Source: Metallosphaera tengchongensis
GTDB lineage: Archaea; Thermoproteota; Thermoprotei_A; Sulfolobales; Sulfolobaceae
Direction: 5' to 3'
NCBI RefSeq assembly: GCF_013343295.1
Contig: NZ_CP049074.1
Coordinates: forward strand, 1,221,501 to 1,285,500
DNA: 64,000 nt
The notes below the pieces were generated by a model. It did not search any database, was not told the origin of the DNA, and worked only from the letters and a program-made list of their open reading frames with translations. Position numbers and translations under genes: made by a program. Numbering within the stretch: position 1 is the stretch's first letter; each line of letters opens with the position of its first letter. This document shows positions 1 to 16,006 of the stretch, piece after piece.

Positions 1-207
1 CTAGCAATAGTTGGCATAATTCTCTTGGCAGTAGGTACAACGACATGGACATATCCGAGAGAAGTTTTCGCAGTAAATGGTATGAATCTAGTGACCGGAA
101 GTACAACGCCCAACTACTTCTTCAACTTCATAGGGCTAGCAATACTACTATTCGGGGTAGGTTCTCTACTGTCTCACGTAGAATTAGGAAGGAGGTCAAA
201 GAGATGA
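1..207 (+). CDS. C-terminal end of a fox-cluster integral membrane protein (partial, 5' end outside window)
   Basis: The frame is open from base 1 and gives 68 residues before the stop. It shows two hydrophobic membrane spans (about residues 1-12 and 35-49) and a short basic tail ending RRSKR. It lies 32 bases upstream of a CbsA-like gene in the same direction. In fox clusters that position is taken by FoxB, a membrane protein of unknown role, or by the oxidase subunit I FoxA. Too little is present to tell which. Coding is well supported; the identity rests on gene order only. Confidence 0.6.
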   Translation, partial: LAIVGIILLAVGTTTWTYPREVFAVNGMNLVTGSTTPNYFFNFIGLAILLFGVGSLLSHVELGRRSKR

Positions 208-239
208 TTTTTATGATTATAGTTTCCGAGGTGAATTAA

Positions 240-1886
240 ATGGCAAACGGAAATAATGTTAAAACTCTCCTCATCTTAGGTTTTATTTTTATGATAGTCC
301 TCGTTGGAGTAGCTTATGGGGCAGACGTCCTCTTAAACGCGGCTTCCAGTGCCTCAAATACAGTAACTGCGTATTACGTTCCTAACGCGCAGTTAAATGA
401 AGGAACTCCAGGAGACGAGGCTTTTTGGGAAACCATCCCGTGGAGCTCAGTCCCTCTTGAACCTACTGTACCGGTACCTAATGGAATATCGGGTCATACA
501 ACGATTGTATACGTTAAGGCTGCATGGACATATGTCCAAGGAGTACCTTACATCTTCGTGCTTATGAAAGCTCCAGTAGTAGGGCAGGAGTCATGGCTAG
601 CTTGTCCCGAGAGAACACCACAGGGACAGCTTTGGCAGCCGTTCACACTAGTGTTACCTGATGGCTGGTACGTGGTGAATGTTTCGTATTCAGCCAGCAA
701 TGAGGGAGTGGCATCAGTTTACACGCTGCCTGCTTCTGAACAAATGGGATATCCACCAGGCCAGGCCCTAACTAACCCAATTACCATATACGTTTACAAC
801 CAGTCTGGTAAGCTGTACGGTCAAATAATGGGGGCCATAGATCCCTATGGGAACCCACTAAACAATGGTAACCCAATTAATATAACTACTATTAATTTAA
901 ACTACAATGGCACACCTGTGACTTCACTATCTCAGTTCCTATCGTTAGGTCTAAATGGTACCACGTGGTTCCAGGATACGTATAATTTGTTCTATCCTGA
1001 GGACACTGCTGGATATGTATCGTTATTTTACAACAACACTTACATGTACCCAGAAAGGTTGGCAATAATGTGGCTACTGGGAGGTGTACCCAATTCTTGG
1101 ACCCAGGTTGCCTATACTCCTCACATGATGCCTGGAACTTCCGGTGCACTTTCCGCAGGACAAGCCGAGTTATGGGTCTTAAATGATAACCCAAGGGCTA
1201 ATAATACACAGGACTCAGGATACCCTGGACCTACATTCTTCAGTAGGACATCCCCGCCAGCATATATTCATCATAGGAGGTACAAGGATCCCCTTAACCT
1301 AGGATATCTACCTAACCAAGGTCTAATAGCTGACCTATATGTTAACGGGTCATCAATTTACTACATAGGAGGAAACTACCAGACTGCCTTCCCATCAATT
1401 GACAACCCTCACATTTCTCCATGGTCAGTAGCTAACGGTAAAGCTAACGTTTCTCAACTTTGGAATCCCTCAGTAGTAGCTACTGGTTTCGACTTCGTTA
1501 ACTCCCCCACAGGTCCCTACATGATTGCAGAGTTCGCGAGGACGTTCACGACTTACGGCGTGTCCGGAGGACAAGGTGAGTCGCACTATCAGATCCAATT
1601 ACAGCCTGGTCAGACCTATCACGTGGCGTTTGCGGTATTCCAGGGAGGCTCTGGAGAGTCTGTAGACTTTAAGGCCATATCCTTCTGGTGGAACCTATAC
1701 ATACAGCCTGACAATCAGAGTTCCATTTCATTCCTACCCTTATTCCTTATTGGTAGTTCTATATTGACTCCTGCTATGGCGTTCATACTACTTAATCCAG
1801 GGATGATGCAAGAAATGTCCCTAAGGCTAGTACCAATAATAAGACAAGTAAGGCAGATTGGAAATGAACAGAGATTTAGGCATTAA
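240..1886 (+). CDS. foxC: CbsA-like cytochrome b558/566 subunit A (FoxC-type), extracytoplasmic heme protein
   Basis: The 548-residue product has an N-terminal membrane segment (about residues 8-28), a long extracytoplasmic domain dense in N-x-S/T sequons, and a C-terminal membrane anchor (about 495-522). This is the layout of the glycosylated mono-heme cytochrome CbsA of Sulfolobales and its fox-cluster relative FoxC. FoxC is thought to take electrons from ferrous iron or a surface carrier and pass them towards the FoxA/H terminal oxidase. The start ATG follows a GAGGTG ribosome site at 229-234. The next gene overlaps its 3' end, so the two are translated together. Heme ligands cannot be assigned by eye. 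The assignment comes from overall architecture and the FoxD/CbsB-like neighbour. Confidence 0.75.
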
Positions 1887-2835
1887 TTTAAATCTTTTTT
1901 CTATCATATATGTTATTTCACTTTTTCTTGAACTATTCTTTAATAGGGAGTTTTTGGCCGGTACCATTCCTATTGGTTTAATTGGAAACGTTCAGGTTAT
2001 TGATAGAATGTTCACTTATCTTTATGTAATTGGTGCCGTAGCTTTTGGTTTGGTACTTATCATGCAACCTATCATATTGGGCATCTCTGCCTATGTAGGG
2101 AACATAAGTAGGACAGGGAAAGCACTGCTTTGGTCTAGTTTATACCTTTCACTTATCCTTGATCTAGTTCACTTGATCGAGGGATATGATAACACCTCAT
2201 TTAACCCTCCTTTAATATTTTCAATAATTTATGTTATTCTGTTGATTTCTACAATTTTAGCAGTAGTCAATTATCTTAAAAAATGGATTGTTTTAGTCGT
2301 GTTGATACCTGATCTCTTGGCTTACTTGACCCTATTAGGCGATTGGTTCTTGCAATTGACAGGGAGTTCGGCCTTCGGGACTATAACCTATGCTGGAGGA
2401 ATTGTAATGCCCTACTTCATAATCATCAGCGGTACGACTTTCATTGTTTACGCTATAAAGAGTGGGATAAACAAAAAGTTACTTTTGCCTTTTCTGGCGT
2501 TGTCTTTACTGGTGGGTTTAATCGTATACTTTAACCTTATACCTGGTTTAGGGCAAATGGTAGGTATCACTTTCCCCTATATATTGGGAATCTTGGGAGT
2601 CAGGGATTGGATGCCCCCTCTTCTCTTCGCTGTGGGCCTTACGGGAGTGGGCTCTGCTTATCTATTATACAAAAAAGATCCTGCAATATCCCTTTCTGTA
2701 TTATCCCTGTTTTCTGGGGCCTTGATATTTGATAGCGTAGACACGACGGTATATTTGTTGATTCCAGTATCTGCAATATCTCTGTTAGCCATACTAAGCT
2801 CTATCCAGAAAAAGGAAGCTGCTTTCAGGCAATAG
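1864..2835 (+). CDS. foxD: CbsB-like polytopic membrane subunit (FoxD-type)
   Basis: The 323-residue product is almost wholly hydrophobic, with about nine membrane helices, no soluble domain and no cysteine motifs. Size and position directly after the CbsA-like gene match CbsB, the membrane partner of cytochrome b558/566, and FoxD of iron oxidisers. It probably anchors the cytochrome and may help quinone or oxidase coupling. ATG 1864 overlaps the end of the upstream gene by 23 bases. A TTG at 1858 is also possible. The overlap implies coupled translation. Function is inferred from gene order and topology. Confidence 0.65.
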
Positions 2836-2891
2836 TCGAAAACCAGTATTTTAAAATCTCAACTGAATTTGGTATAATCTCTAACAACACC

Positions 2892-2930
2892 CTAGAAAGT
2901 GGTTCTATGTTCTAGAAAATGGTTCTATGT
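2892..2930. promoter_or_regulatory. Two tandem 19-bp repeats, each containing the palindrome TAGAA-N5-TTCTA
   Basis: CTAGAAAGTGGTTCTATGT (2892-2910) and CTAGAAAATGGTTCTATGT (2912-2930) differ at one base and repeat with a 20-base period, about two helical turns. Each contains the perfect inverted repeat TAGAA-N5-TTCTA. They lie 50-90 bases upstream of the TATA box at 2981, a normal place for a dimeric activator or regulator to bind. The binding protein is unknown. Confidence 0.55.
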
Positions 2931-2980
2931 GAGTTTTGAAGATCATTGTGACTTCCAGATCTCCTTTAGATCTCAAGAAG

Positions 2981-2990
2981 ATTTATAAAC
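2981..2990 (+). promoter_or_regulatory. TATA box for the 65-aa membrane protein gene
   Basis: ATTTATAAAC predicts transcription starting near 3008-3012, just before ATG 3019, so the message would have almost no leader. A second, weaker ATTATAAAC lies at 2995-3003. Confidence 0.5.
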
Positions 2991-3018
2991 GAGAATTATA
3001 AACATAATATTGATAAAC

Positions 3019-3216
3019 ATGGCAGGAGTAAAGACTGTAAGAAGGGTTCTCGGAGCAGTAATAGCAGCAATTGGAGTAACTGCGTGGGTATCGGACTTGT
3101 TTTTGGTGCAAACGCTACCTTATTCTGAGTTCGCCAATGATTCGTTTGTAGCTATAGTTCCACTATCGGGTGCAGTGTTAGTAGCTGGAGGAACTTTACT
3201 CGGACTATGGAGTTGA
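3019..3216 (+). CDS. Small membrane protein in fox-like cluster, unknown function
   Basis: The product has 65 residues, with a basic N-terminus (KTVRR) and two hydrophobic helices (about 9-29 and 43-63). ATG 3019 is preferred to the upstream TTG 3010 because the TATA box at 2981 places the transcript start at about 3010. The next gene begins 15 bases after the stop, so the two form an operon. In fox clusters small membrane proteins occupy this position (FoxE/FoxF region), but the sequence has no motif that I recognise. Confidence 0.6.
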
Positions 3217-3231
3217 CCGGGTGAAGAGACC

Positions 3232-3837
3232 ATGCCCAAACCAAGTAATATATATCTTTTTCTAGGACTTGCCCTTGTGGTTGCGAGCATTAATCCCTTC
3301 TCTCTTCAGATTTCCTCGTCTCAGGAAGTGGCAAAGTTCTCGTTTGATATGACCCTAGTGTGGGGAGCAGGTCTTATAGGGATATGGCTCGCTAAGGTGA
3401 TATATAGTAAGGGCGGTAGACTCGGGTCGAGCTTTCTAGACTTTAACTATAGGACGAGGGGTCTCTTCCTATCATGGTTGATAGGCGGTTCAATAGTCAC
3501 GTTTTGGTATATACCTGGACCTTTCGCCTTGAGCGTTGTCAGTCCGTCGATAAGGGCGCTTCAATTGATTACCTTTATCATAGCAGGTTTAGTGTCTGGA
3601 ATCGGATGGGACGGTATGCCTAAAGTATGGAAGAGCATAACGATTTTTGCGGTGTTCAGCATGATGGCAACTATGGCAGAGGTGTTTTTAGAAATGGGTA
3701 CATACTACGCTGTGGATGTGTATAGACCGTACTCAGTGTCCCAGTTAGTTGAGACATCGTATTTTCTATTTGCTATGGCTTTCATACCTTCAACTTACTA
3801 TATGGTGAAGATATTAAGGGATCTAGATATATTTTAA
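3232..3837 (+). CDS. Polytopic membrane protein in fox-like cluster, unknown function
   Basis: The 201-residue product has about six membrane helices, a short polar N-terminus and no cysteines or histidine-rich loops that would suggest a redox cofactor. The start ATG has a GGTGAAG ribosome site eight bases upstream. It is co-directional and closely spaced with the 65-aa gene, so both probably form one unit behind the paired palindromes at 2892-2930. A structural role in the iron-oxidation respiratory complex is an inference from position only. Confidence 0.65.
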   Translation: MPKPSNIYLFLGLALVVASINPFSLQISSSQEVAKFSFDMTLVWGAGLIGIWLAKVIYSKGGRLGSSFLDFNYRTRGLFLSWLIGGSIVTFWYIPGPFALSVVSPSIRALQLITFIIAGLVSGIGWDGMPKVWKSITIFAVFSMMATMAEVFLEMGTYYAVDVYRPYSVSQLVETSYFLFAMAFIPSTYYMVKILRDLDIF

Positions 3838-4060
3838 AGTATTTTTCCCGTAATATAATTAAAACGAATGAATCTCAAGTAAAAATTTTATCATTCCTTG
3901 GTTTTGATGAAGTTTCAAGTTCTGCTTAAGTGAAACTTTATTGTCCCTATCTTTTTATCTCCCCGAGTAAGCAAGACAACAGGTATTCGAAGTAGCCTTA
4001 GATCTTGGATTTTTGAAATACACAGTACTGTTACTACCAAATCGGGAACAACGAAAGTTT

Positions 4061-4069
4061 TTTATATTA
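4061..4069 (+). promoter_or_regulatory. TATA box for the 51-aa gene and downstream membrane gene
   Basis: TTTATATTA lies within an A/T-rich stretch 33 bases upstream of ATG 4098. The spacing suggests a leaderless or nearly leaderless transcript. Confidence 0.45.
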
Positions 4070-4097
4070 TTTTATTTATATTCTATCACGATAGAAC

Positions 4098-4253
4098 ATG
4101 GTATTGCTTTTAGAAACCCAGGAGAACTTATACCAAGTAATATTCTTCCTAATGGCTGTGGTCTACCCGATCTGGTACTACATTATCTTGTGGAAGGCAG
4201 AAAAGGATCCCCAGGTGGACATATCCGAGGTTATGAAACAGGAGTCCGCATGA
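4098..4253 (+). CDS. 51-aa single-span membrane protein upstream of the CSCE/CPSC membrane protein
   Basis: An ATG frame of 51 codons gives one strong membrane span (about residues 12-32, ending IWYYIILW) followed by a charged C-terminal tail (KAEKDPQVDISEV). This is the topology of small oxidase or assembly subunits. Its TGA at 4251 runs into a GAGGG ribosome site for the TTG start at 4264, so translation is probably coupled. A TATA box sits 30 bases upstream. A longer overlapping frame (4013-4282) has no hydrophobic or coding character and was discarded. Function unknown. Confidence 0.6.
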   Translation: MVLLLETQENLYQVIFFLMAVVYPIWYYIILWKAEKDPQVDISEVMKQESA

Positions 4254-4263
4254 GGGATTTTTA

Positions 4264-6141
4264 TTGGAAGATAGAAAGCTAACTGATATTTTTCAACTAA
4301 GATTTATAAGATTGATATTTTCAATCACTTTTGTACTATATTTCGTGTTTTATCAGTATGTGGACAGGATACTGTTGTTTCAGGACATTTTATTGCCTCA
4401 AGGTGTCAACATTGTGGTTGACACTTCCCCACCTGTCCCACCAAATCAGATGCCTTATCCCTTATGGGGCCCATTTCTATCTATAACGACGAGATACTTT
4501 GACTGGGCTATGACGCCGTTGTCGTTGAGCATTTCGTTTATCCTCTCCTTCCTTGTGGCATTGAACGTGAGCCTTTACATTTTCCTCTTCTACTCCATAA
4601 GGATGAGTAGTAAACATAAGTTGGCAGCTTCCCTCGGTCTGTTGGCTACCTCCCTGTCCTGCTCATGTGAACTTTTCACTGCCCTGATTGGGGCTACTGT
4701 GTCAAATATCCCCTTTCTAGTATCCATAACCTTCATGAATCTGTTGGGTGAAGCTTTGACCGTTGTTGCAGGTACCATATTGGTAATATCATCTCTGGTC
4801 ATTGCCTCAGAAATAGTCGGAGCTAAGCCCTTTTCATGGATGAGGTGGAAGTTAGGCATCCCAGTAGCTATAATATTTGCACTTACGTTACTTCTCCTTC
4901 CTCAAGGGAAGGAATTCTTCCTCGCCAGACTTGTGATTTCTATTCTAATAGGAGGGATAGTGGGCTACGTCTTGAAAAAGGCAGGAAAAATAGGCAACCC
5001 AGGGAAATACTCTTTTTTTGTCTCTGCAGTAATAGTCTCAATTCTCTTCGTCATGTTTGAGTACTTTAATAGCTTAGAGGCAATTTCACTCTCCATCTTG
5101 TCGGGATTTTTAGGGTATCTAGGTTACATCAATCTAAAACCCTGGAGTAGGCTTGGTCTACTTCATATAATCGGTTGGAGCCTTATTATGCCTGGTCCCA
5201 TTTCCTTAGTTCTAGGTAGTCCAATACCATTCTTTAGCCTCACTGGAGGTAAGGCCATCCTCTTCTGGATTACTGCATGGATATTCGGCACACCCATAGC
5301 GTGGCTTGCAGGTGTTCAGTATCTGCAGTACATACGGGATAACCTGGCAACTTACAGTTCATCTCTGAGGCTTCCACCAACCAGGTACACGGATTATGGC
5401 TACCTAAAGTGGCTAGTGTTAGGTGGACTGGCGGTGTTCTCCCAAATAGCGTTCTTCTCAACCCACTCGAGGTACTTCCTAGACTATAACGGATACGATC
5501 TTCTGTTTTTAGAGACGATGACTCTTTCCTCCACCTTTCTAATGAGCGCTGGACTTGTCGCGATTGGGTATGGAGTATACCTGGCCATTAAGAGGAGATA
5601 CGGTTTCCCAGTTATTAGTAAGAAGCACTTCTTGTTGGCTTCCATCCTGTATGGAATTGTCGAAATGCTTGTGACTAAGATGATGATAATAGCGCCGAAT
5701 GGCTATCCTTATCCACCAGTCCTCGTTTTAGGGTACGGGGAGCCTATGTATGCTCCCGCTGTGACTATTTATGTGCCAGGTATCATTGGGTTTTATCTGT
5801 ATCCAGTCTCTGTACTGGCTTTGGTTTCATCCTCTGCTCTTTCTGGATACATTTGGGCTTTGATATATAATCAGAAACGGAAAAAACTTGGCTCGTTAAC
5901 TGCGTTCAGCCTTCTGACTGCGTGTCCGTCCTGTGGTCTATCTGCGTTAGGGTATGTCATATCTTCTACGGTAGTCGCATCCAGCATAATACTGTCCTTT
6001 TATAGCCAAATAGCGTTTACTATTGCGTCCTTAGCCATCTTGACTGCCCTATTGGTCTACGTTATTCGTACAACCAACTTATCGTGCAAGTTAGATCTTA
6101 CCCAGCCAGTTGAAAGAAAAGGTGATCTTAACCCAAGGTAA
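4264..6141 (+). CDS. Large polytopic membrane protein with CSCE and CPSC motifs, fox-like cluster
   Basis: The 625-residue product has about 14-16 membrane helices. Two cysteine motifs sit at the start of hydrophobic segments: C133-S-C135-E136 and C554-P-S-C557. Their surroundings resemble one another (small and hydroxyl residues before, alternating hydrophobic and small residues after), which suggests two related halves. Paired cysteines in a membrane helix could bind copper or take part in thiol exchange; either would suit a protein that loads metal into the terminal oxidase. The start is TTG 4264, the only start codon after the in-frame stop at 4234, with GAGGG seven bases upstream. I do not know a named family for it. 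Confidence 0.7.
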   Translation: MEDRKLTDIFQLRFIRLIFSITFVLYFVFYQYVDRILLFQDILLPQGVNIVVDTSPPVPPNQMPYPLWGPFLSITTRYFDWAMTPLSLSISFILSFLVALNVSLYIFLFYSIRMSSKHKLAASLGLLATSLSCSCELFTALIGATVSNIPFLVSITFMNLLGEALTVVAGTILVISSLVIASEIVGAKPFSWMRWKLGIPVAIIFALTLLLLPQGKEFFLARLVISILIGGIVGYVLKKAGKIGNPGKYSFFVSAVIVSILFVMFEYFNSLEAISLSILSGFLGYLGYINLKPWSRLGLLHIIGWSLIMPGPISLVLGSPIPFFSLTGGKAILFWITAWIFGTPIAWLAGVQYLQYIRDNLATYSSSLRLPPTRYTDYGYLKWLVLGGLAVFSQIAFFSTHSRYFLDYNGYDLLFLETMTLSSTFLMSAGLVAIGYGVYLAIKRRYGFPVISKKHFLLASILYGIVEMLVTKMMIIAPNGYPYPPVLVLGYGEPMYAPAVTIYVPGIIGFYLYPVSVLALVSSSALSGYIWALIYNQKRKKLGSLTAFSLLTACPSCGLSALGYVISSTVVASSIILSFYSQIAFTIASLAILTALLVYVIRTTNLSCKLDLTQPVERKGDLNPR

Positions 6142-6177
6142 ACGAGGGTTTTCCCTTGTGAAGTTTTTGAGCTATTG

Positions 6178-6186
6178 TTTATAAAC
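6178..6186 (+). promoter_or_regulatory. TATA box fixing the start of the 256-aa membrane protein
   Basis: TTTATAAAC lies 20-28 bases upstream of ATG 6206. ATG 6188 would lie only two bases after the box, so the shorter frame is chosen. Confidence 0.5.
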
Positions 6187-6205
6187 CATGATTTTAAAGT
6201 CCTAT

Positions 6206-6976
6206 ATGGAAAACCTAACGGTCTTAATTGGCTTGGCCTCACTAATGGTTGCGGTCATAGTGGTGCTTCTCTACTACGTCTCTAAAGTGACCACCAAAGT
6301 TGGTACTTTCTTTCTATACTTTGCTTTCTTCATGATGATATTTATGCTTATAGGGGCTTCTGTGTACCTGTTTTCTCCTAGCGAAACGAGTTTGGGAATT
6401 GCAGTGGGAATTAACATGGTGTCAATGATTCTTTTCCTCGGTTATTTCTTTGCTGTTGCGGAGAGACTGACTGATAAAGTGACATTCACTTGGTATCACT
6501 ATTATTCAATCTCCTTGTTGACCGTGATAAATGAGGGGTTAATGGGGCTGACATTTGGGTTGGCCCAATTTGGTGTAGCCCCGTTCTCCTCCCTTGTTTC
6601 CGGGATAAACGAGTCGATAAACAGCTACTGGTTTTTCTACCCAATGATGGCGGAGATGTTATCGTTGTATCTAATTTCGCTTTCCAGAGGGAGATCACGC
6701 ATAGAGCTCTTTCCCTTCATAGGGATCACAGCTTTTCCTCCAGTCATATTTCAGGGGATCCTGATCTGGAAATACTTCTCTATTATAATGGACGTGGGTC
6801 TCTCCTTGTTCGGTATATATTTTAAGGGCAGTTGGCGGTACCTATATATACTTGCTGCAGTGGGTTCTTTGAGCGCCCTCTATCTACCCTGGATATTTGA
6901 CGTGGCTGTGATAGCGGGAATGGTAATGTATTACGTAGGTGTTTTTAGAACTGAAAGACTGTCCGGGATAAGATGA
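6206..6976 (+). CDS. Polytopic membrane protein in fox-like cluster, unknown function
   Basis: The product has 256 residues with about seven or eight membrane helices and short loops. ATG 6206 is preferred to ATG 6188 because of the TATA box at 6178-6186. It has its own promoter and ends eight bases before the 3' end of a convergent operon. There are no cysteine pairs or other cofactor motifs. It lies between oxidase-associated genes and the AAA ATPase operon, so a role in the respiratory cluster is likely, but nothing in the sequence defines it. Confidence 0.65.
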   Translation: MENLTVLIGLASLMVAVIVVLLYYVSKVTTKVGTFFLYFAFFMMIFMLIGASVYLFSPSETSLGIAVGINMVSMILFLGYFFAVAERLTDKVTFTWYHYYSISLLTVINEGLMGLTFGLAQFGVAPFSSLVSGINESINSYWFFYPMMAEMLSLYLISLSRGRSRIELFPFIGITAFPPVIFQGILIWKYFSIIMDVGLSLFGIYFKGSWRYLYILAAVGSLSALYLPWIFDVAVIAGMVMYYVGVFRTERLSGIR

Positions 6977-6984
6977 AGTGCTCA

Positions 6985-7179
6985 TCAGTAATCGAAGTAC
7001 TTCTGGATGTCCTTTATCACAAGACTCAGTAAGACGCCGCAGACTGCCAGATCTACCCCTAGGACACCTATGAAGAGCAAGGTATTTTTAACAAATATTA
7101 TGTCCAGGAAAAGGATTATTGCGAAAAGGATACCTATCTGGATAACATTGACCATTGACCTTAAACCCTCAGTTGGCAT
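6985..7179 (-). CDS. Small two-span membrane protein, third gene of the AAA ATPase operon
   Basis: The 64-residue product has two hydrophobic helices (about 9-31 and 33-56) and a polar C-terminus (KDIQKYFDY). The chosen ATG at 7179 has AGGTGAG three bases upstream; the longer frame from 7206 overlaps the preceding gene and lacks a ribosome site. It follows the 96-aa membrane gene with only five bases between, so both are probably co-transcribed with the ATPase. Function unknown; a membrane adaptor for the ATPase is one possibility. Confidence 0.6.
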   Translation of the reverse strand: MPTEGLRSMVNVIQIGILFAIILFLDIIFVKNTLLFIGVLGVDLAVCGVLLSLVIKDIQKYFDY

Positions 7180-7183
7180 TTTC

Positions 7184-7474
7184 TCACCTAAAGATCTTTC
7201 TGGCAAACAACACTATTAAATACGGTATGGTTTCAATCGAAACGAGAAAGGCTATGGGATCCACGACAAACCCCTCCAGAACTGCAAGAATAATGAAATA
7301 TAGTGTTAACATGAATATAAGTTTTATCTCGGTACTTGTTAGATAAAATAGATCCAACCAAGAAACAAAGTCATTCCACGCTATCCCTAGAACTATCATC
7401 GTGAAAACTCCTGCCATTCCCACGGAGTACACTAGCAATCCCGCTATTGAGAAAATTTCAACTATAGGCACCAC
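7184..7474 (-). CDS. Small membrane protein translationally coupled to the CDC48-type ATPase
   Basis: The product has 96 residues and about three membrane spans (roughly 5-30, 50-68 and 75-90). GTG 7474 lies inside the last codons of the ATPase gene, giving a 17-base overlap that is typical of coupled translation. A GTG one codon later is equally possible. No motif is recognised. The overlap ties its expression to the AAA ATPase and suggests that the two products act together. Confidence 0.6.
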
Positions 7475-9560
7475 CGAGTCTTACTCTCTCCAAAAATGAG
7501 TTATAATAGTTGATCATAGCTTGAGTCACCGTAGGTTTAACTGATCTTATTGAATCAACGAGGTCCTCAAAGGTAATCTTGGAAACTTTATTTTCCTTCA
7601 CCCCTCTTCTTATGGCAAGGAGCACTGCCTTATTTACAACACCCCTTATATCGGCAGGGGTGAAGTTTTCAGAGACTTTAGCTAAGTAAGAGAAATCTAT
7701 TTTCTCATCGAAGGGATGTCTCGTTACCATCTTCTGGAACATCACCTTCCTGGTCTCGTAGTCCGGGGCAGGAACGTAAACCAGCTTCTCTAGCCTTCCA
7801 GGTCTAATGATTGCCGGGTCAATTATATCTGGTCTGTTGGTAGCTGCCATAAAGATTACCCTCTCCTTACGGGTCGCGACTCCGTCCATTTCCGTGAGCA
7901 TTTGGCTCAAAGCCCTATCCGTAACCCTGTTGGGATCTGAACCCCTCACTGTCGCTATTGCATCTATCTCGTCAAAGAAGATCACAGTTGGGGACGCCTG
8001 TCTCGCTCTCTTGAAAACTTCCCTTATTGCTCGCTCCGTTTCCCCTACCCACATGTTCATCAGTTCTGGACCGCTGACTGCTATGAAATTGGCTCCGCTT
8101 TCATGTGCAACGGCCTTAGCTAGCATGGTCTTCCCTGTGCCTGGCGGTCCGTATAGCATTACCCCTGTTGGGATCTCAGCCCTCATTTCATCATAAAGGT
8201 TGGAGTACTTTAGAGGCCACTCAACGACTTCCCTAAGTTCTTGCTTTACCTGGTCCAGCCCTATAATGTCCTCCCACGTTACGTTCGGGATCTCCACTCT
8301 GAACTCCCTTAGTGCTGAGGGCTCAATGTTCTTCATGGCATCCATAAAGTCGGTCATAGTCACTTTCGCTTCTTCTGGGTTGTTCACCCTCCTTAACGCT
8401 CTCATGGTAGCTTCTCTGACGAGAGCCTCAAGATCAGCCCCAACGAAACCGTTGGTCATGGACGCTATCTGTTCAAGGTTAACGTCTTCCGCAAGGGGTA
8501 TCCTCCTAGTATGTATCTTTATGATGTCTAGCCTAGCTCTTTTATCAGGAACGGGAATTTCAATTTCTCGGTCAAACCTTCCTGGTCTTCTCAACGCAGG
8601 GTCAATCGCATTGGGCCTATTGGTTGCACCTATAACTAGTAGACCCCCTCCAGAGGACACCCCGTCCATAAGGGTCAAAAGCTGTGCCACAATCCTCTTG
8701 TCAGCCTCCCCGTTAGTCACGTCTCTATTGGGAGCTATTGCATCTATCTCATCAATAAATACCATTGAGGGGGAGGACTTTTCAGCTTGTTCGAAGATCT
8801 CTCTCAATCTCTTCTCGCTCTCCCCATAGTACTTTGATCCTATTTCTGGCCCACTTATGAAGAAGAAGTTAGCCATTACCGAGTTTGCAAGGGCCTTAGC
8901 TATCAGGGTTTTACCTGTCCCTGGGGGTCCATAGAGGAGTACACCCTTTGGAGGACGAAAGCCAAAAAGTCGCGTGACCTCAGGTTTAAGTAGTGCTATA
9001 TCAATGATCTCTTTAAGGGAAGCTATTTGTTCGGTCAGGCCTCCAATATCGTCCAGTGACACTAGGGGGATATTTTTCTGTGTCTGTTTGATGATCTCAC
9101 CTGTGATCTCTATCTCAGTCTCACCCACTATCATGCCTACTTCCACTCTCGGTTCATAGGAGGCTACGACGAATTCGCCCTGTTTAGTCGAAAGAGGGAT
9201 CCCCCTAGAAACTGGTACACTTCTCAGTTCCAGGTTTAATCTCCTAGTGTCAAACGTCTTTTGAGATGAAGGCGCTAGAACTACGGAGCTCAAAGGGACT
9301 GGTTCTATCTTTCTAACCACGACCTTCTCTCCATTTCTCACACCTATGAACCTTAGAACGTCATCGTGCACTGTAATTCCACCTGTGTTTTCCCTGTCCT
9401 CCTGGACAAGCAGAGGGAACATTTTATTTCCGATGATCGCTATGGTGTCACCGTAACCCAACCCCTTGCCCTTCATTATATCTGGGTCTATGAGACACAC
9501 GTTCCTACTCTTGACTTTTCTTGTCCCACTAAATAACTTAATGAAGAATTCGCTAACCAT
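7458..9560 (-). CDS. CDC48/VAT-family AAA+ ATPase (VCP-like)
   Basis: The 700-residue unfoldase has the standard archaeal layout: an N-terminal substrate domain (about 1-160, double-psi barrel type) and two AAA modules. Module 1 has Walker A 211-218 (GPPGTGKT), Walker B FIDEID 268-273 and pore loop KYYGES. Module 2 has Walker A 471-478, Walker B D530-E531 and pore loop MWVGET. Arginine-finger regions (RRPGRFD; IRPGRLE) are intact, so it should hydrolyse ATP and thread proteins through its pore. It starts an operon with two tiny membrane proteins, opposite in direction to the surrounding fox-like genes. A TATA-like CTTTTTATC at 9592-9602 lies upstream. Its setting suggests turnover or assembly of membrane respiratory proteins; that is inference. 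Confidence 0.9.
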
Positions 9561-10005
9561 CCCTTACCTAAGAAACTATGGGACTTTAGGGATAAAAAGC
9601 TTCATTCAGGGAGTTTTTATGCCCAAAATTAATTGAAAGGACATTGGTCTGCAAAATACGGATTAATCCTGTAAATAAATATCTATTACTAGTTAAAACT
9701 AGGTTTCCTAAACTTTTCCTGAAGGACATATGCTTGTCAAGAGAACTGTATGTTGAATAAGAATAAATAGTAGATCGTTAGTATATAACAGATTCCTCAT
9801 AATTTCCTCATAATTTAAACAGATGACTAAAACTACGTCTAAATATGTTTAAAGATTTGCTAGCTATTTGGAAGAAATTTATAATTATAATTACATTATT
9901 TGTTCTATGAGTTATACAAAGTTTAAATAATTTAATAACAAAGTTACACTAAGTTAACAAATTATAGAAATCTTTTTAAGGGGGGAATACTACAGAGAGA
10001 ACACC
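9561..10005. other. Divergent intergenic region, A/T-rich, with short direct repeats
   Basis: There is no gene-like frame in this 445-base stretch between the AAA ATPase (reverse) and the polyferredoxin (forward). It holds the ATPase promoter (9592-9602), an exact 11-base tandem repeat TTCCTCATAAT at 9793-9814, several scattered CAAAGTT/AAGTT motifs between 9914 and 9965, and a TTTTTAA box at about 9973-9979 that serves the forward genes. Confidence 0.5.
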
Positions 10006-10062
10006 ATGTTGTGTGTAAATATGTTTAATCATGTTAAAATACACATAAAAGTGGTGATATGA
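10006..10062 (+). CDS. Possible 18-codon leader peptide overlapping the polyferredoxin start
   Basis: ATG 10006 opens an 18-codon frame beginning MLCVNMFNH. Its TGA (10060-10062) overlaps the start of the polyferredoxin at ATG 10059 as ATGA. The TTTTTAA box near 9973-9979 predicts transcription starting about 10000-10006, so this would be the first, leaderless frame on the message. It may simply feed ribosomes to the next gene, or sense cysteine supply for an iron-sulfur protein. It could also be chance. Confidence 0.35.
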
Positions 10063-11921
10063 TGCAGAAGATGGAGTACAAGGTTACGGAGAAGGTGAGG
10101 CGATATGAAAGAAAATTTAATTTTTATACTGCACTAGCTACAATCTTCACTGGAATATTTACATGGATTTCCGCTATTTTAAAGCAAGTTTTGATGATAG
10201 AGACAGGAATCCTTCTCTTCACGACCGCTTTAACTATCCTAGCGGTGAATCTTGTCGTGGACATAAAAGTTAAGTCCCACTCCAACTCTTGGGTATACGC
10301 TACTCCACCTAGGGAGATTTTAAAGTCGGCTGACAGGATAGGTAAGGAACTCTGTGAGCATAGACCCTCTCTCCTTGAAGGGAACAACCCCATAAGCAGA
10401 CTGGTGTCCAAGATCTTTAAGAAGAGTTGGGCACATTTTGCTATTATTCTCCCAAGTTTTGTCATTTTCTATGTCGTCATGGCTACAGGTCTAATAGGGT
10501 ATCAGAAGCTAGGTCCAGCGGGAATTTCTCTAGTTAATTTCGCGTCGGATATAAGTTGGCTCTTCTGGTTCCCCCTCCTATGGCTACTGACTTGGTTAGC
10601 AAATGGACGCGCCTGGTGCCAGACCTGTCCCTTCAGCGGGCAAGCGGAGTGGGTTCATAGGCTTCACCCTTGGAAGAAGATGAGCAAGAAACTAGGCCTC
10701 AATCTGAGGTGGCCCATCAAGTACAGTACCATCTTTTATTCAGCGGTAGGTTTCTCGGTTCTAACCTGGATGGAAGAATTCTATGGCATAGGGGGGCCTG
10801 GAGTTCCTGAGCTGACCTCTGTGGTGTTGATATATATAGGAGCGCTGGAGCTCTTCATAAGCTTGCTATTTCAGGATAGAACGTTCTGCAGGACAATCTG
10901 TCCACTCAGCGCCCCACTGGCTGTGACCACCACGATATCTCCATTGGGGACCTTTAGGGCTAAGAACCCGGAAGTATGCAAGGCTTGCACCACTAAGGAC
11001 TGTATGAGGGGCAATGAAAAGTATCACGGTTGCCCGTGGTTTGCCTCCCCAGGCAGCAAAGAGAACTCCCCGATGTGCGGTCTTGCCTCGGACTGCTATA
11101 AGGCTTGCCCACATGAGAACATAGACTGGCAGGTAAAGAGATTCCCATGGTTAAGCGACCTCTCCTCAGGGAAAAAGAGGTTTGACTTTGCGTTAACAGT
11201 TACGTTGCTTACTGGAGTTGTATTATTCCAATTCCTGAACGCCCTTCCAGTTTATTCCATGATCGACGGATTCCTGAATTCAGTGACTGGTTGGGCTAAC
11301 TTCGCCCAGTACCTTGTACCTGGTCTAGGAAAGTTTGGGTATTCCACTGACGGTTATCCCAACCCATTGGACTATTTCGCCATAAACTTGGTTCCTATAA
11401 TTGGAGTAATTTTGGCAGCCAAGTTTGAGGAAAGGAGAGGGGTGCCATTAAAGTGGGGGTTCACTACCATATCATATGCGCTGATCCCTGTGTTTGCAGC
11501 GTCAATCCTAGTGAGAAACCTGCCTAAGTTCCTAGGTGGTTCTCCCCTGATACTAAACGAGATATTAGATCCTACAGGTGCAGGAATGCACAACAGTGCG
11601 ATTTACTCTACCTTCTGGGGGTCATTCCTCCACTCCCTAGGCAACGATCCCCTCCACGCGTCTGCGGCCTGGTGGGTACTCCTGGTCATGGAGGCTGTGA
11701 TGGCTTTTGGGATCTACTTGGGAATAAGAGCGTCTAACATGCTTGCGGAGACTGACGGGGTTAGCAAATGGACGTACTATGCAGTGGTCCTTGGCTTTGG
11801 CGTAACCTTCATGTTGGTCACGTACTGGATGTCGTCTCCTGCGAATCCGGCCCTACCTTTCTATAATCCCTACCTAGGAAACGTGGTTTACAACCCGTTG
11901 CAGGCTTCTCCACCGTTCTGA
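10059..11921 (+). CDS. Membrane-bound polyferredoxin-like iron-sulfur protein (NapH/NosR-like), fox-like cluster
   Basis: The 620-residue product has about ten membrane helices around a cysteine-rich core. Cysteines fall at C187/C190 (CQTCP), C277/C281 (CRTICP), C307/C310/C315/C325 and C340/C346/C350 (ending CYKACPHEN). The first two pairs are the CxxCP and CxxxCP signatures of NapH/NosR/CcoG-like membrane ferredoxins; the rest could hold one or two more [4Fe-4S] clusters. It would carry electrons across or along the membrane, perhaps in the uphill branch from iron to NAD. ATG 10059 or 10062 follows GGTGAT. The ferredoxin-CBS gene begins nine bases later. Similar proteins occur in fox clusters (FoxW-type naming is used, not certain here). 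Confidence 0.85.
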
Positions 11922-11930
11922 GGTGATAGT

Positions 11931-12926
11931 ATGGAACCCATAGTCTTGATTGATGTTGACAGGTGCGTCGGTTGCTACATGTGCCAAAGGGCTTGCGCGC
12001 TAGCCCAATGCATAGAGATAAATGAGTTCACAAGATTTGCTGAGGTAGTCAGACCTGAGGACTGCACAGGTTGTATGGCTTGCGAAAGGGCTTGTCCATA
12101 CAACTGCATTGAGGTACTCAGTGAGGGAGTTGACGTTTCAGCAAGGGCTAAGGTAACGTTGTCGAGAGTGAGGCGGTACATGAATAAGAGGTTGAGGACT
12201 GTCTTCTCAACTACCACGGTTAAGGAGGGGGCCATGATTATGACCAAGGAGAACATAGGCTCACTGCTCATATGGTCGGATAAGCTCAAGATAGCTACAG
12301 AGACTGACATCCTGAACGCCTGGTACACGGGAAAGGAGAATGAGCTACTTGTAGCTTTCTCTCATGAGGCAGTTACGGTAGAGGGTAGAGCTACTGTACA
12401 AGAAGCACTGGAGGTCATGATAAAGAAGGGAATAGGCCATCTTCCAGTTCTGGAAAGAGGGAAACTGGTGGGAATGCTGTCCATAAGGGACGCATTGAGG
12501 GCGTCCTCTGTTACATCGCCAGTTAAGGACCAGGGAATATTTCCCATTAATCCAAACGGGAAGGTGAGGGAATTCGTCAAGACCTGTCCAGTACTCCAGA
12601 ATCCAACCAACGAAAAGGTCTTAGTCACACTCAGGGAGCACGGTCTAAAGGCCCTATTGGTTAGAGATAACGATAGGGTAGGTCTAATTTCCGTGAGAGA
12701 TCTGACCAAGGCCCTCGCCCTAGGAAGGTCGCTAAAGGATCACGCTGAGCCAAGGTGGGTTAAACCCATTTCTGCGGAGGAGTCGATCTCTAAGGCCATT
12801 GCTATTATGATGGAGCATAACATCAGGAACATGCCGGTGATAGACGGAGAAGAATTGAAAATTCTAAGCGTCAAGGAGATAGCTAAACATGCAATCTGGA
12901 TCACTGCCCCTGAGAGAGGGGCATAG
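11931..12926 (+). CDS. Dicluster ferredoxin fused to four CBS domains
   Basis: Residues 1-60 carry two [4Fe-4S] motifs: C12-x2-C15-x2-C18-x3-C22 and C45-x2-C48-x2-C51-x3-C55. Residues about 75-331 form two pairs of CBS modules, which usually bind adenine nucleotides. The whole reads as an electron carrier whose activity answers to ATP/AMP or NAD level. A GGTGAT ribosome site precedes ATG 11931, and the gene lies nine bases after the membrane polyferredoxin, so the two form an operon and probably a complex. Ferredoxin-CBS proteins are known members of fox clusters. The soluble domain is expected on the cytoplasmic side. Confidence 0.85.
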   Translation: MEPIVLIDVDRCVGCYMCQRACALAQCIEINEFTRFAEVVRPEDCTGCMACERACPYNCIEVLSEGVDVSARAKVTLSRVRRYMNKRLRTVFSTTTVKEGAMIMTKENIGSLLIWSDKLKIATETDILNAWYTGKENELLVAFSHEAVTVEGRATVQEALEVMIKKGIGHLPVLERGKLVGMLSIRDALRASSVTSPVKDQGIFPINPNGKVREFVKTCPVLQNPTNEKVLVTLREHGLKALLVRDNDRVGLISVRDLTKALALGRSLKDHAEPRWVKPISAEESISKAIAIMMEHNIRNMPVIDGEELKILSVKEIAKHAIWITAPERGA

Positions 12927-13487
12927 AAAAAGTAGACCTTTTAATTTTAAAGTTACTATATTTTAAACTTATCTAGAAAAATATTTTAAGATATAAAGTT
13001 TTCTCCGTTTACGGATATGACATCTCTATGTCCTTATTGACTGGAGAGTTTCCTGAAGTAACCCTAAAAACCTCCGAGCATCTTCCCGTTAAGCTAATCA
13101 AAAATCCATGATAAAGAGAACGCAAACCTCGCCCTTAGGGCGGGGAGGAGGTCAGATGAAGCTCAAATGTAGACAATCCGATGGAACAGGCCGTCCTTTA
13201 CGGACGTGCTCTTCGCGTTATGGACGTTCATACCTCCTCCAATGGCAGGTGAGATCTTAATCGTTACGCTAACCTTAAGTTATACTCGTCTTGAGATGAC
13301 CTCAAGAGTCCTCAACTATGCACTCCAACTGCTGGGATAACGTCTTTCAGTACAGGATTGTATCTTAGACAAGTTGAATGTTGATATGGAAGGTCCATGA
13401 ACTGGAAGGTAGGGAGAAAGTGCTGGGAGATGGAGGGATATTCCCTCACCCTTTAGGGTAGGGAAAGGATCCAGTGGCGGTATGTCT
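12927..13487. other. Intergenic region of 561 bases with IS debris and hairpins
   Basis: After the ferredoxin-CBS stop there is a T-rich tract, as expected for archaeal termination (CTTTTTAATTTT near 12937). The rest holds no sustained frame. It contains the IS-end-like element at 13110-13155, a small hairpin near 13190 and a near-perfect 25-base hairpin at 13441-13465 (TTCCCTCACCCT / AGGGTAGGGAA) just before the convergent regulator gene. Confidence 0.45.
13110..13155 (+). repeat. Left-end-like remnant of an IS200/IS605-family element with GC hairpin
   Basis: A motif that can be read GATAAAGAGAACGC followed by the hairpin CTCGCCCTTAGGGCGGGGAG and GAGGTCAG closely matches bases 59434-59478, directly upstream of a decayed tnpB. 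No tnpB frame follows here. The hairpin CCGTCC-TTTA-CGGACG lies just downstream at about 13190. This looks like an orphan transposon end. Confidence 0.5.
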
Positions 13488-13820
13488 TTAGGAGACTATT
13501 CCTGTCTGAAAACTCTCTTTGTCTTTGGATTCATATTCCTCCTCTATCATCATTCTGATAGCCTTCCTGAATAATTCGCTTCTTTTCACCTGGGCGGTCG
13601 TCAGGTATTTTTCTATTTTACTATCTAAATCGTCTGGAATCTTCAGTGTCAGAATAGTTAACTCAGAAGAGCTAATCAAATCGTCTATAGGAATGTTCTC
13701 GTCGATGATTCTTTCAACTCTTTTCCTTATTTCCGAGGAAAGAGATGTTTTCCTCCTCCTCACTATTTCCCACGCCTGCTCAGCCAGACTTTTTTCAACC
13801 TTAAATGACCTTACCTTCAT
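13488..13820 (-). CDS. Ribbon-helix-helix regulator with two RHH units in one chain
   Basis: The 110-residue product looks like two ribbon-helix-helix DNA-binding units in series. Unit one (about 2-40) has strand RSFKVE, helix SLAEQAWEIVRRR and helix SLSSEIRKRVERII. Unit two (about 55-95) has strand ILTLKIP, helix DDLDSKIEKYL and helix KRSELFRKAIRMMIEEE. The second is a clear CopG/Arc-type match; the first is weaker. A single chain could then form a pseudo-dimer on DNA. It has no toxin-like partner next to it. It lies between IS debris and the acetamidase gene, and its target is unknown. Confidence 0.7.
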   Translation of the reverse strand: MKVRSFKVEKSLAEQAWEIVRRRKTSLSSEIRKRVERIIDENIPIDDLISSSELTILTLKIPDDLDSKIEKYLTTAQVKRSELFRKAIRMMIEEEYESKDKESFQTGIVS

Positions 13821-14057
13821 TCAGGAAAGTTTTAGTTTTGTAGATAATAAATTTTTGTTTAATTATACAAAGCAAGTTGATATCTTTGAATATTTCTAAG
13901 TATAATTCAAAAAACATATTTGTGTAAAATCTCCATACACGTTAGGGTAAGTCTCTTACTTTGTCCTCCTTCTATTTATCATATTAGTTATAAAATTTTA
14001 CATAAAAACAAGATTCCGTAAGGGGGATGTTATCCAAAAAGCTGAATAACGCACCGA

Positions 14058-15026
14058 TTAGAAGATGCTTAGTTTCCCCCTAAAGTCTTCAGGGAAAATA
14101 TCCTTAGGGAGATATGCCGTTACTATCCAATTTGGCACATCTACGACTTGACTTACCTTCAGATCCACCGCTACGCTGGCCAGCATATATGCTTCCACCG
14201 GGCTCATGAAGCGGGATAAGATCGAGATAATCCCTTTCACTGCTTTTTTGCCTGCCTCCCAAAGGTTATGGTCAATTCCTGGATAGGCGAGATATTCCCT
14301 ATAGTCCGTCTCTTTCACGGAAGGACTCTCAAAGATAGGTTGTTGAAGCCCTTTACCCTTGTGTAGCGTTACTCTCAGGGTTACGTCTATTGGTGCCTCT
14401 ATGGCAGTCCCGCAGACTTCCCCATCTCCCTGAGCCAAATGTGTATCACCTAAAGAAAGGAGTGCTCCCTTAACGAAAACCGGAAGGTAAAGCCTGGACC
14501 CCTTTCCCAAGTGTTTAATGTCCATATTTCCTCCATTTTCCCTTGGAGGTATTGTACTGAACTTACCCGGTGAGGGTAATGCAGTGCCGATGACACCCGG
14601 AAAGGGATAAAGCGGTATCTTAACCGAGGTCACATCTCCAAACTTAGCCTCAGCGTACTCTCTCACTTTCCATATTTTTAAAGCGGGACCGGCTAGGTCT
14701 ATCGGCGTTGTATACTGGTCGTTAGCTAAAAACCCAAAACCTGGTAGCACGCCGGTCCAACCCCACCCCTTATGTTGGAGATCTAAGAACTCGATTTCTA
14801 ACGCGTCGCCTGGTTCCGCATTTTGGATCTCGATAGGTCCTGTAAGGGGGTGGATTCTTGAGAAGTCCAACTTTAGTAAATCTGAGGCTGTGGAACTAGG
14901 AGTAACCTGGCCGTCCGAAGCTTCCTTAGATTCAACCTTAATGACATCTCCTGACTTAATTGAGAAAACTGGTGGGAGAGAGTTGTCCCATTTGTTATGG
15001 GACAGCCTTGAATGGATTGTATACAT
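14058..15026 (-). CDS. Acetamidase/formamidase family amidohydrolase
   Basis: The 322-residue product belongs to the FmdA/AmdA family, which hydrolyses formamide or short amides to ammonia and the acid. Family hallmarks are seen: the N-terminal HNKWD segment, the conserved GPIEIQNAEPGDALEIEF stretch, and a central GDTHLAQGDGEVCGTAIE region that carries active-site residues. Length is normal for the family. ATG 15026 is chosen over 15044 because a TTTTATTT box at about 15049-15056 places the transcript start close to 15026. It probably supplies nitrogen and stands alone, with no transporter beside it. Confidence 0.85.
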   Translation of the reverse strand: MYTIHSRLSHNKWDNSLPPVFSIKSGDVIKVESKEASDGQVTPSSTASDLLKLDFSRIHPLTGPIEIQNAEPGDALEIEFLDLQHKGWGWTGVLPGFGFLANDQYTTPIDLAGPALKIWKVREYAEAKFGDVTSVKIPLYPFPGVIGTALPSPGKFSTIPPRENGGNMDIKHLGKGSRLYLPVFVKGALLSLGDTHLAQGDGEVCGTAIEAPIDVTLRVTLHKGKGLQQPIFESPSVKETDYREYLAYPGIDHNLWEAGKKAVKGIISILSRFMSPVEAYMLASVAVDLKVSQVVDVPNWIVTAYLPKDIFPEDFRGKLSIF

Positions 15027-15217
15027 GATGATAAGAAGAATCACAGGGAAATAAAATCTAGGTTATCCTCGTCCTCCGACAACGTGATTACATCAGTCAA
15101 GTCTCACCTCGTCTCGCCCTATAGGGCAAGACTTACCTAGCTATGCAATGGGATACTACGGAGCAATTCAACGGAAACGTAGCTCTTCTGTTACGTTAGG
15201 AAGTTAGACTCTATCTC
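15027..15217. other. Upstream remnant of the decayed tnpB, including a 22-base palindrome
   Basis: A near-perfect hairpin GTCTCGCCCTA / TAGGGCAAGAC lies at 15111-15132. Bases about 15160-15217 can be read, with frame breaks, as sequence preceding the C-terminal tnpB fragment. No intact gene is present. Confidence 0.4.
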
Positions 15218-15481
15218 ATGCAGTACCGCAGACTACAGTACTGGATTGGATGGCAAGCTAAAAAGCGCGGTCTCAAGGTAATCTACGTCGACCCACACTT
15301 CTCCTTCACCTCATGGCCTAAGTGCGGGAATAAGATGGAAGAAACAGGACATAGGTACCTCAGTTGCCCTTGCGGTTATGAGATCGATCATGACTTCATC
15401 GCAGTCATGAACCTTTATGGGAGGCGTTGTCTGAGCCTCTCGACTGCCCCTCAAATGAGAGATGTAAATCCGAATCGATAA
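15218..15481 (+). pseudogene. tnpB: C-terminal fragment of tnpB (IS200/IS605 OrfB), family A
   Basis: These 87 codons match the TnpB C-terminus: [18 protein letters not shown], a zinc-ribbon region and the tail [13 protein letters not shown] found in Sulfolobus copies. The usual first zinc cysteine pair CPKC reads WPKC, so one ligand is lost. The RuvC-type aspartate region reads YEIDHDFIA, with the aspartate kept. The N-terminal three quarters are absent, so the element is dead. A GAGGAGGAAGTCAG end-like sequence follows at 15500-15517. Confidence 0.85.
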
Positions 15482-15595
15482 GGGGAACCCTTGCTTTTAA
15501 GGTGAGGAGGAAGTCAGAGATTATTTAACAAGTTAGAAGGACATTCGGGCTAGGTTAATTTAAGCCCGTCTAAAATACCAAAAACCGATCGTCTC

Positions 15596-16006
15596 TTAAG
15601 AAACTACGGTGCTAATCTCGGATCCTTGTAATATGACTTGTCCGAGTAGCTCCTCAAGAGGACGCGTGTTTTCGGTGTCGACTACCACGTCAGACGGGGA
15701 GAACACCTCAAAATAACGCCATTGCCTCAAACTCTTGAACTTGACAGCTATAAGCGCGTGACCCTCTAGAGGAAACATGGAGACGAACCTTAAGATCTTG
15801 TCTAACTGGATTGATCTTACCTTAACCTTCCTCTCCCAGGTACTCTTAACCTCTATTGACAGAAGTACACTACCCCTCACTGCAAACACGTCTGGCAAAG
15901 GGTTCCCAGAAGAATTTGAAGTCGGTATCCTCACCGAGTTGTATCCAGCGTTTCTTAGGATGGATACCAACTCTCTCTCAGCGTTCCTACCTACATCCTT
16001 ATTCAT
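15596..16006 (-). CDS. hje: Holliday junction endonuclease Hje
   Basis: This 136-residue archaeal resolvase cuts four-way DNA junctions. The start MNKDVGRNAERELVSIL, followed by VRIPTSNSSGNPLPD, matches Hje of Sulfolobus closely. Catalytic residues of the fold are present: Glu in AERE, Asp in PLPD, and Glu-x-Lys in SIEVKS. ATG 16006 is chosen from that alignment; the frame extends 17 codons further but into the preceding permease gene. It follows the ABC permease by 43 bases on the same strand, though a functional link is unlikely. Hje differs from the housekeeping Hjc, which should be elsewhere in the genome. Confidence 0.9.
   Translation of the reverse strand: MNKDVGRNAERELVSILRNAGYNSVRIPTSNSSGNPLPDVFAVRGSVLLSIEVKSTWERKVKVRSIQLDKILRFVSMFPLEGHALIAVKFKSLRQWRYFEVFSPSDVVVDTENTRPLEELLGQVILQGSEISTVVS

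Follow-up and report, generated by a model that had tools for sequence, protein, structure and literature searches.

Two copies of the palindrome TAGAA-N5-TTCTA stand in tandem between foxD and foxE in the fox iron-oxidation cluster of Metallosphaera tengchongensis, and it is an even call whether, in the foxE promoter, they serve as a lineage-specific operator for a regulator of fox, which may be the protein termed REG here. The pair was noticed in a stretch of 64,000 nucleotides (the window; contig NZ_CP049074.1, positions 1,221,501 to 1,285,500). Unit 1 (CTAGAAAGTGGTTCTATGT) occupies window positions 2892-2910 on the + strand with an exact TAGAA-N5-TTCTA core at 2893-2907. Unit 2 (CTAGAAAATGGTTCTATGT), at 2912-2930 on the same strand with its core exact at 2913-2927, is a tandem duplicate of unit 1. 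Repeat finders place the repeat, with its period of 20 bp, at 2892-2930 and reveal a single G-to-A change, located in the spacer, so that both palindrome arms are unchanged in both duplicates. The pair begins 89 bp and ends 54 bp before the TATA-like box of the foxE promoter (TTTATAAA, 2982-2989, +), a region conserved in four congeners. The preliminary description of paired, near-identical units with a 20-bp period, lying 50-90 bases before a TATA box, was therefore correct in structure and position.

The window starts inside the fox cluster of a single-contig genome of 2,176,897 bp. Upstream of the palindromes are foxC (240-1886), which has a weak CbsA match, and, directly adjacent, foxD (1858-2835, +), with orthologs 57-61% identical in the four fox-bearing congeners. 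Downstream are foxE (3019-3216, +; 65 aa, ATG at 3019), whose fox-cluster orthologs in congeners are 82-85% identical, and foxF (3232-3837, +; 201 aa), a DUF1404 protein with a Pfam match of 3.4e-45. Beyond foxF are a 625-aa membrane protein, foxG, and foxH, and just beyond the window edge are foxA, two small genes, REG, and foxB. The fox gene names were assigned by order and similarity, with no curated annotation behind them, and the gene order agrees with that published for the genus, foxA-A'-I-B-C-D-E-F-J-G-H (PMC7325606). Immediately before the 625-aa gene is a conserved 51-aa membrane-protein ORF (MVLLLETQENLYQVIFFLMAVVYPIWYYIILWKAEKDPQ..., 4098-4253, +), which is smaller than the usual ORF cut-offs; comparable small ORFs precede the 625-aa gene in other fox clusters. 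The window genome (G000) was compared with four fox-bearing congeners (G001-G004, of which G004 is M. javensis) and a fox-poor one (G005), which we take to be M. cuprina. Loss of several fox subunits has been reported for M. cuprina (PMC7325606). Outside the order, contig JAMDBQ010000018.1, binned as Candidatus Marsarchaeota, carries a foxA-foxB-foxC-foxD run in which A, B, and C are 54-68% identical. This suggests that iron oxidation of the fox type, or transfer of its genes, extends beyond Sulfolobales, unless the contig was wrongly binned.

An alternative to the operator, which we regard as quite possible, is that a 5-bp dyad arose by chance in a fast-evolving spacer and was doubled not long ago through replication slippage. 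One duplication would then have given the pair, its 20-bp period, and the apparent stacking on one face of the helix as by-products. The duplication itself is real, since a 19-bp tandem repeat appeared in 0 of 2000 shuffles of the foxD-foxE intergenic region. However, duplication of one dyad is enough to produce a second one with this period and phasing, so that these features are not independent evidence. A single dyad is easily obtained by chance: a 5-bp dyad with a spacer of 5 occurred in 27% of dinucleotide shuffles of this region, and in 72% when spacers of 3-7 were allowed.

Pattern searches of the genome also favor the chance explanation. In 2.18 Mb there are 10 matches to the bare motif, compared with 6 to its reversed control and an expectation of 3.9 under independence, a density near chance; 5 of the 10 fall in open frames longer than 100 codons. 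Taken alone, the pair says little about function. The match at genome position 1220160 lies inside the REG coding sequence and was taken as chance. The extended unit was found nowhere else in the window genome, nor was the paired arrangement, even with three mismatches, and a mobile-element origin of the pair was rejected on the uniqueness of the extended unit. Other fox promoters of this genome hold no exact match, and a de novo dyad search of 35 fox promoters, with one mismatch allowed, showed no enrichment of a TAGAA-type dyad. The palindromes were also considered as an RNA element, and this was discarded, as Rfam gave no match at window positions 1-16000, in the REG-region locus, or at two other loci.

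Comparison of the congeners likewise agrees with a chance dyad. Orthologous foxD-foxE spacers, located via the FoxD orthologs of G001-G004, are about 300-960 bp long in these genomes (64 bp in one other genus). The palindromes are absent from this spacer in all four, and only the core promoter with its TATA region (ATTTATAAA..AGAAT..) is common to the spacers of the congeners. Fox noncoding DNA of three of the four congeners contains no exact copy, apart from a repeated sequence of G002. That genome has 27 TAGAA-type sites, mostly copies of one repeated sequence that is present also in G016 and is unrelated to the window pair. The preliminary description had named random density elsewhere and lost conservation in close relatives as grounds against a binding site; given the near-chance count of the bare motif and its absence from the orthologous spacers, this is largely what was found.

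What keeps a functional operator ahead of chance is a copy of the palindrome at REG in M. javensis. There, CTAGAAAGTGTTTCTAT lies about 80 bp before the REG start codon and is identical to unit 1 of the window at 16 of 17 positions. It was found by side-by-side reading of all fox promoters in the five fox-bearing species, with the motif already fixed. The likeness ends at the edges of the palindrome, as it would for a binding site. In the six genomes of the genus, CTAGAAANNGNTTCTAT has no exact match other than the two window units and the M. javensis site, whereas about 0.15-0.19 matches would be expected (scaled from seven one-mismatch matches). In a reversed control, 1 of 2932 17-mers reached 16/17 in the fox noncoding DNA of relatives, about 3e-4 per 17-mer, and the other 17-mers of the window genome that match this DNA at 16/17 or better are in apparently orthologous promoter or coding stretches. 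A near-identical, non-orthologous copy at a fox-linked gene is thus improbable if the dyad arose by chance. The copy appears to be fair support for an operator, yet it is a single match, and the palindrome is present in two of the five fox-bearing Metallosphaera species. The earlier proposal of a regulator binding site hence survives in part: the copy at REG speaks for it, whereas the near-chance density and the lack of orthologous conservation speak against it. A family-wide TAGAAANTGNTTCTA regulon was rejected, because the inspected matches outside fox in 31 family genomes were mostly coding or IS-like and the few intergenic ones had no shared context.

That the preliminary description assigned no regulator to the cluster reflects where the window was cut. 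The gene REG (genome 1220011-1220529), which plausibly encodes a regulator, lies 1 kb outside the window and begins about 1.5 kb upstream of it. It encodes a winged-helix-like protein of 172 aa with four conserved cysteines, Cys2 and a CxxC-x5-C group. Orthologs that are 43-53% identical occur near fox in G001-G004, and hence in 5/5 fox-bearing Metallosphaera examined, and G005 has REG paralogs only. Among 25 members of the family, Cys2 is nearly invariant and Cys114, Cys117, and Cys123 (Cys114-x2-Cys117-x5-Cys123) are invariant. An S[KR]SY[YF]Y helix, which reads like the recognition helix of a winged-helix protein, is common to these members. In several genera, paralogs adjoin cbsA-cbsB-like clusters, and in a further genus the neighbor is a bd-oxidase-like gene; these neighbors were identified by tblastn or by eye only. 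REG apparently belongs to an undescribed, Sulfolobaceae-centred family that neighbors fox, cbs, and other respiratory clusters. No Pfam, NCBIfam, or significant PDB match was obtained for REG. Its weak profile match to the MutY Fe-S loop, which has the same cysteine spacing, is not significant (E 1.4), and its AlphaFold model (pLDDT 49, no PDB fold match) was built from two sequences only and is uninformative. REG is a putative regulator, and the four cysteines make iron or redox sensing no more than plausible. No regulator of an archaeal fox cluster was found in the literature searched, and earlier work on regulation may exist.

If the pair is an operator, one regulator dimer would bind each palindrome, and the two dimers, sharing one face of the DNA and separated by about two turns of the helix, would bind cooperatively. 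We infer such binding, and the effect on foxE could be activation or repression. An archaeal upstream activator could act from a site at this distance, 54-89 bp upstream of the TATA box. The fox-linked REG would be the most plausible binder, and the palindrome before REG in M. javensis would imply autoregulation in that species.

REG is put forward as the binder of the palindromes only tentatively. A recognition helix as well conserved as that of REG predicts a conserved operator, and the palindrome is not conserved. At REG-paralog loci, the TAGAA motif is not enriched (10 matches versus 14 in the control). In addition, a noncoding element of about 115 bp (TTAACRGGGYTTRAAGAT...) was located from genome position 1219448 onward, about 2 kb before the window; it consists of TTAACRGGGYTTRAAGATWTTTTA, then the TATA-like AAGTTTT, and then GACTGTTTTCACTGATT. 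All five fox-bearing Metallosphaera genomes contain the combination of ATTAACRGGGYTTRAAGATWTTTTA, a TATA-like box, and then GACTGTTTTCACTGATT in exactly one copy, each time in the fox region close to REG, and it is absent from 21/21 other genomes. Judged by these genomes, this element is far better conserved than the palindrome pair, which lowers the standing of REG as the palindrome binder. Because its orientation relative to the neighboring genes varies, the element may represent either a regulatory site or an independent small RNA gene; it gave no match in Rfam. Should REG use a single operator in every species, the ATTAACRGGGYTTRAAGATWTTTTA element is a better candidate than the palindromes. 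A broader proposal is that REG founds an undescribed cysteine-containing (Fe-S or thiol redox) winged-helix family accompanying the respiratory clusters of Sulfolobaceae, that its fox member controls iron oxidation, and that TAGAA-N5-TTCTA is the operator of this member in at least two Metallosphaera species. Taken as a whole, this proposal is unlikely.

Either explanation of the pair has practical consequences. If the palindromes or the TTAACRGGGYTTRAAGAT... element are operators and REG is the protein that binds them, control of iron oxidation relevant to biomining becomes directly testable. If a chance dyad was doubled by slippage, the case calls for caution, since tandem duplication can make a weak palindrome resemble a strong "paired operator".

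Operators of archaeal Lrp/AsnC proteins are a useful comparison. They typically comprise semi-palindromic sites in clusters, with a center-to-center spacing of two or three helical turns (PMC2995911). The 20-bp spacing of the fox pair agrees with this one-face arrangement, and the pair could serve a regulator of the Lrp/AsnC type whose gene lies in another part of the genome, with cooperating dimers two turns apart. We consider this improbable, because a fox-linked Lrp gene was not found at this locus, the TAGAA/TTCTA arms differ as far as can be checked and match no verifiable Lrp consensus, and the bare motif is near chance genome-wide. A further DNA-binding candidate, also passed over when the cluster was said to have no assigned regulator, is a ribbon-helix-helix-like protein encoded inside the window downstream of foxH (13488-13820, -; 110 aa). 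Its single chain may combine two ribbon-helix-helix halves, the fold being read from the sequence only. Its gene lies near fox in the window genome, G001, G003, and G004, but the fox-poor G005 also has it, in G002 it is separated from fox, and nothing ties the protein to TAGAA-N5-TTCTA, which makes it a very improbable owner of the operator.

The HHC box (Leyn 2015) resembles the fox palindromes in being a motif proposed as regulatory before energy- or carbon-metabolism genes of Metallosphaera. It was proposed upstream of 3-hydroxypropionate/4-hydroxybutyrate genes (cited in PMC12529230 and PMC5461723), and binding of AbfR1 to it is disputed. Conserved blocks at the abfD and pccB promoters of six species (TACTAAACTTTAAAAACTTTAAA and TAAAAATTTTAAG, respectively) are not TAGAA-N5-TTCTA. 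Judged from these promoter blocks, the fox palindromes are thus unlikely to be HHC boxes. Among the abfD upstream regions, only that of the window genome contains TAGAATCTGTTCTA, about 100 bp before the gene; its arms are those of the fox palindromes, its spacer is 4 long, and it is probably due to chance.

Finally, the candidate regulator itself can be compared with winged-helix regulators that sense redox state through Fe-S clusters or thiols. Like them, REG is small and winged-helix-like, and carries a conserved cysteine set that would be able to hold a cluster. It differs from them in having no family match, and it apparently represents a Sulfolobaceae-centred family of its own.
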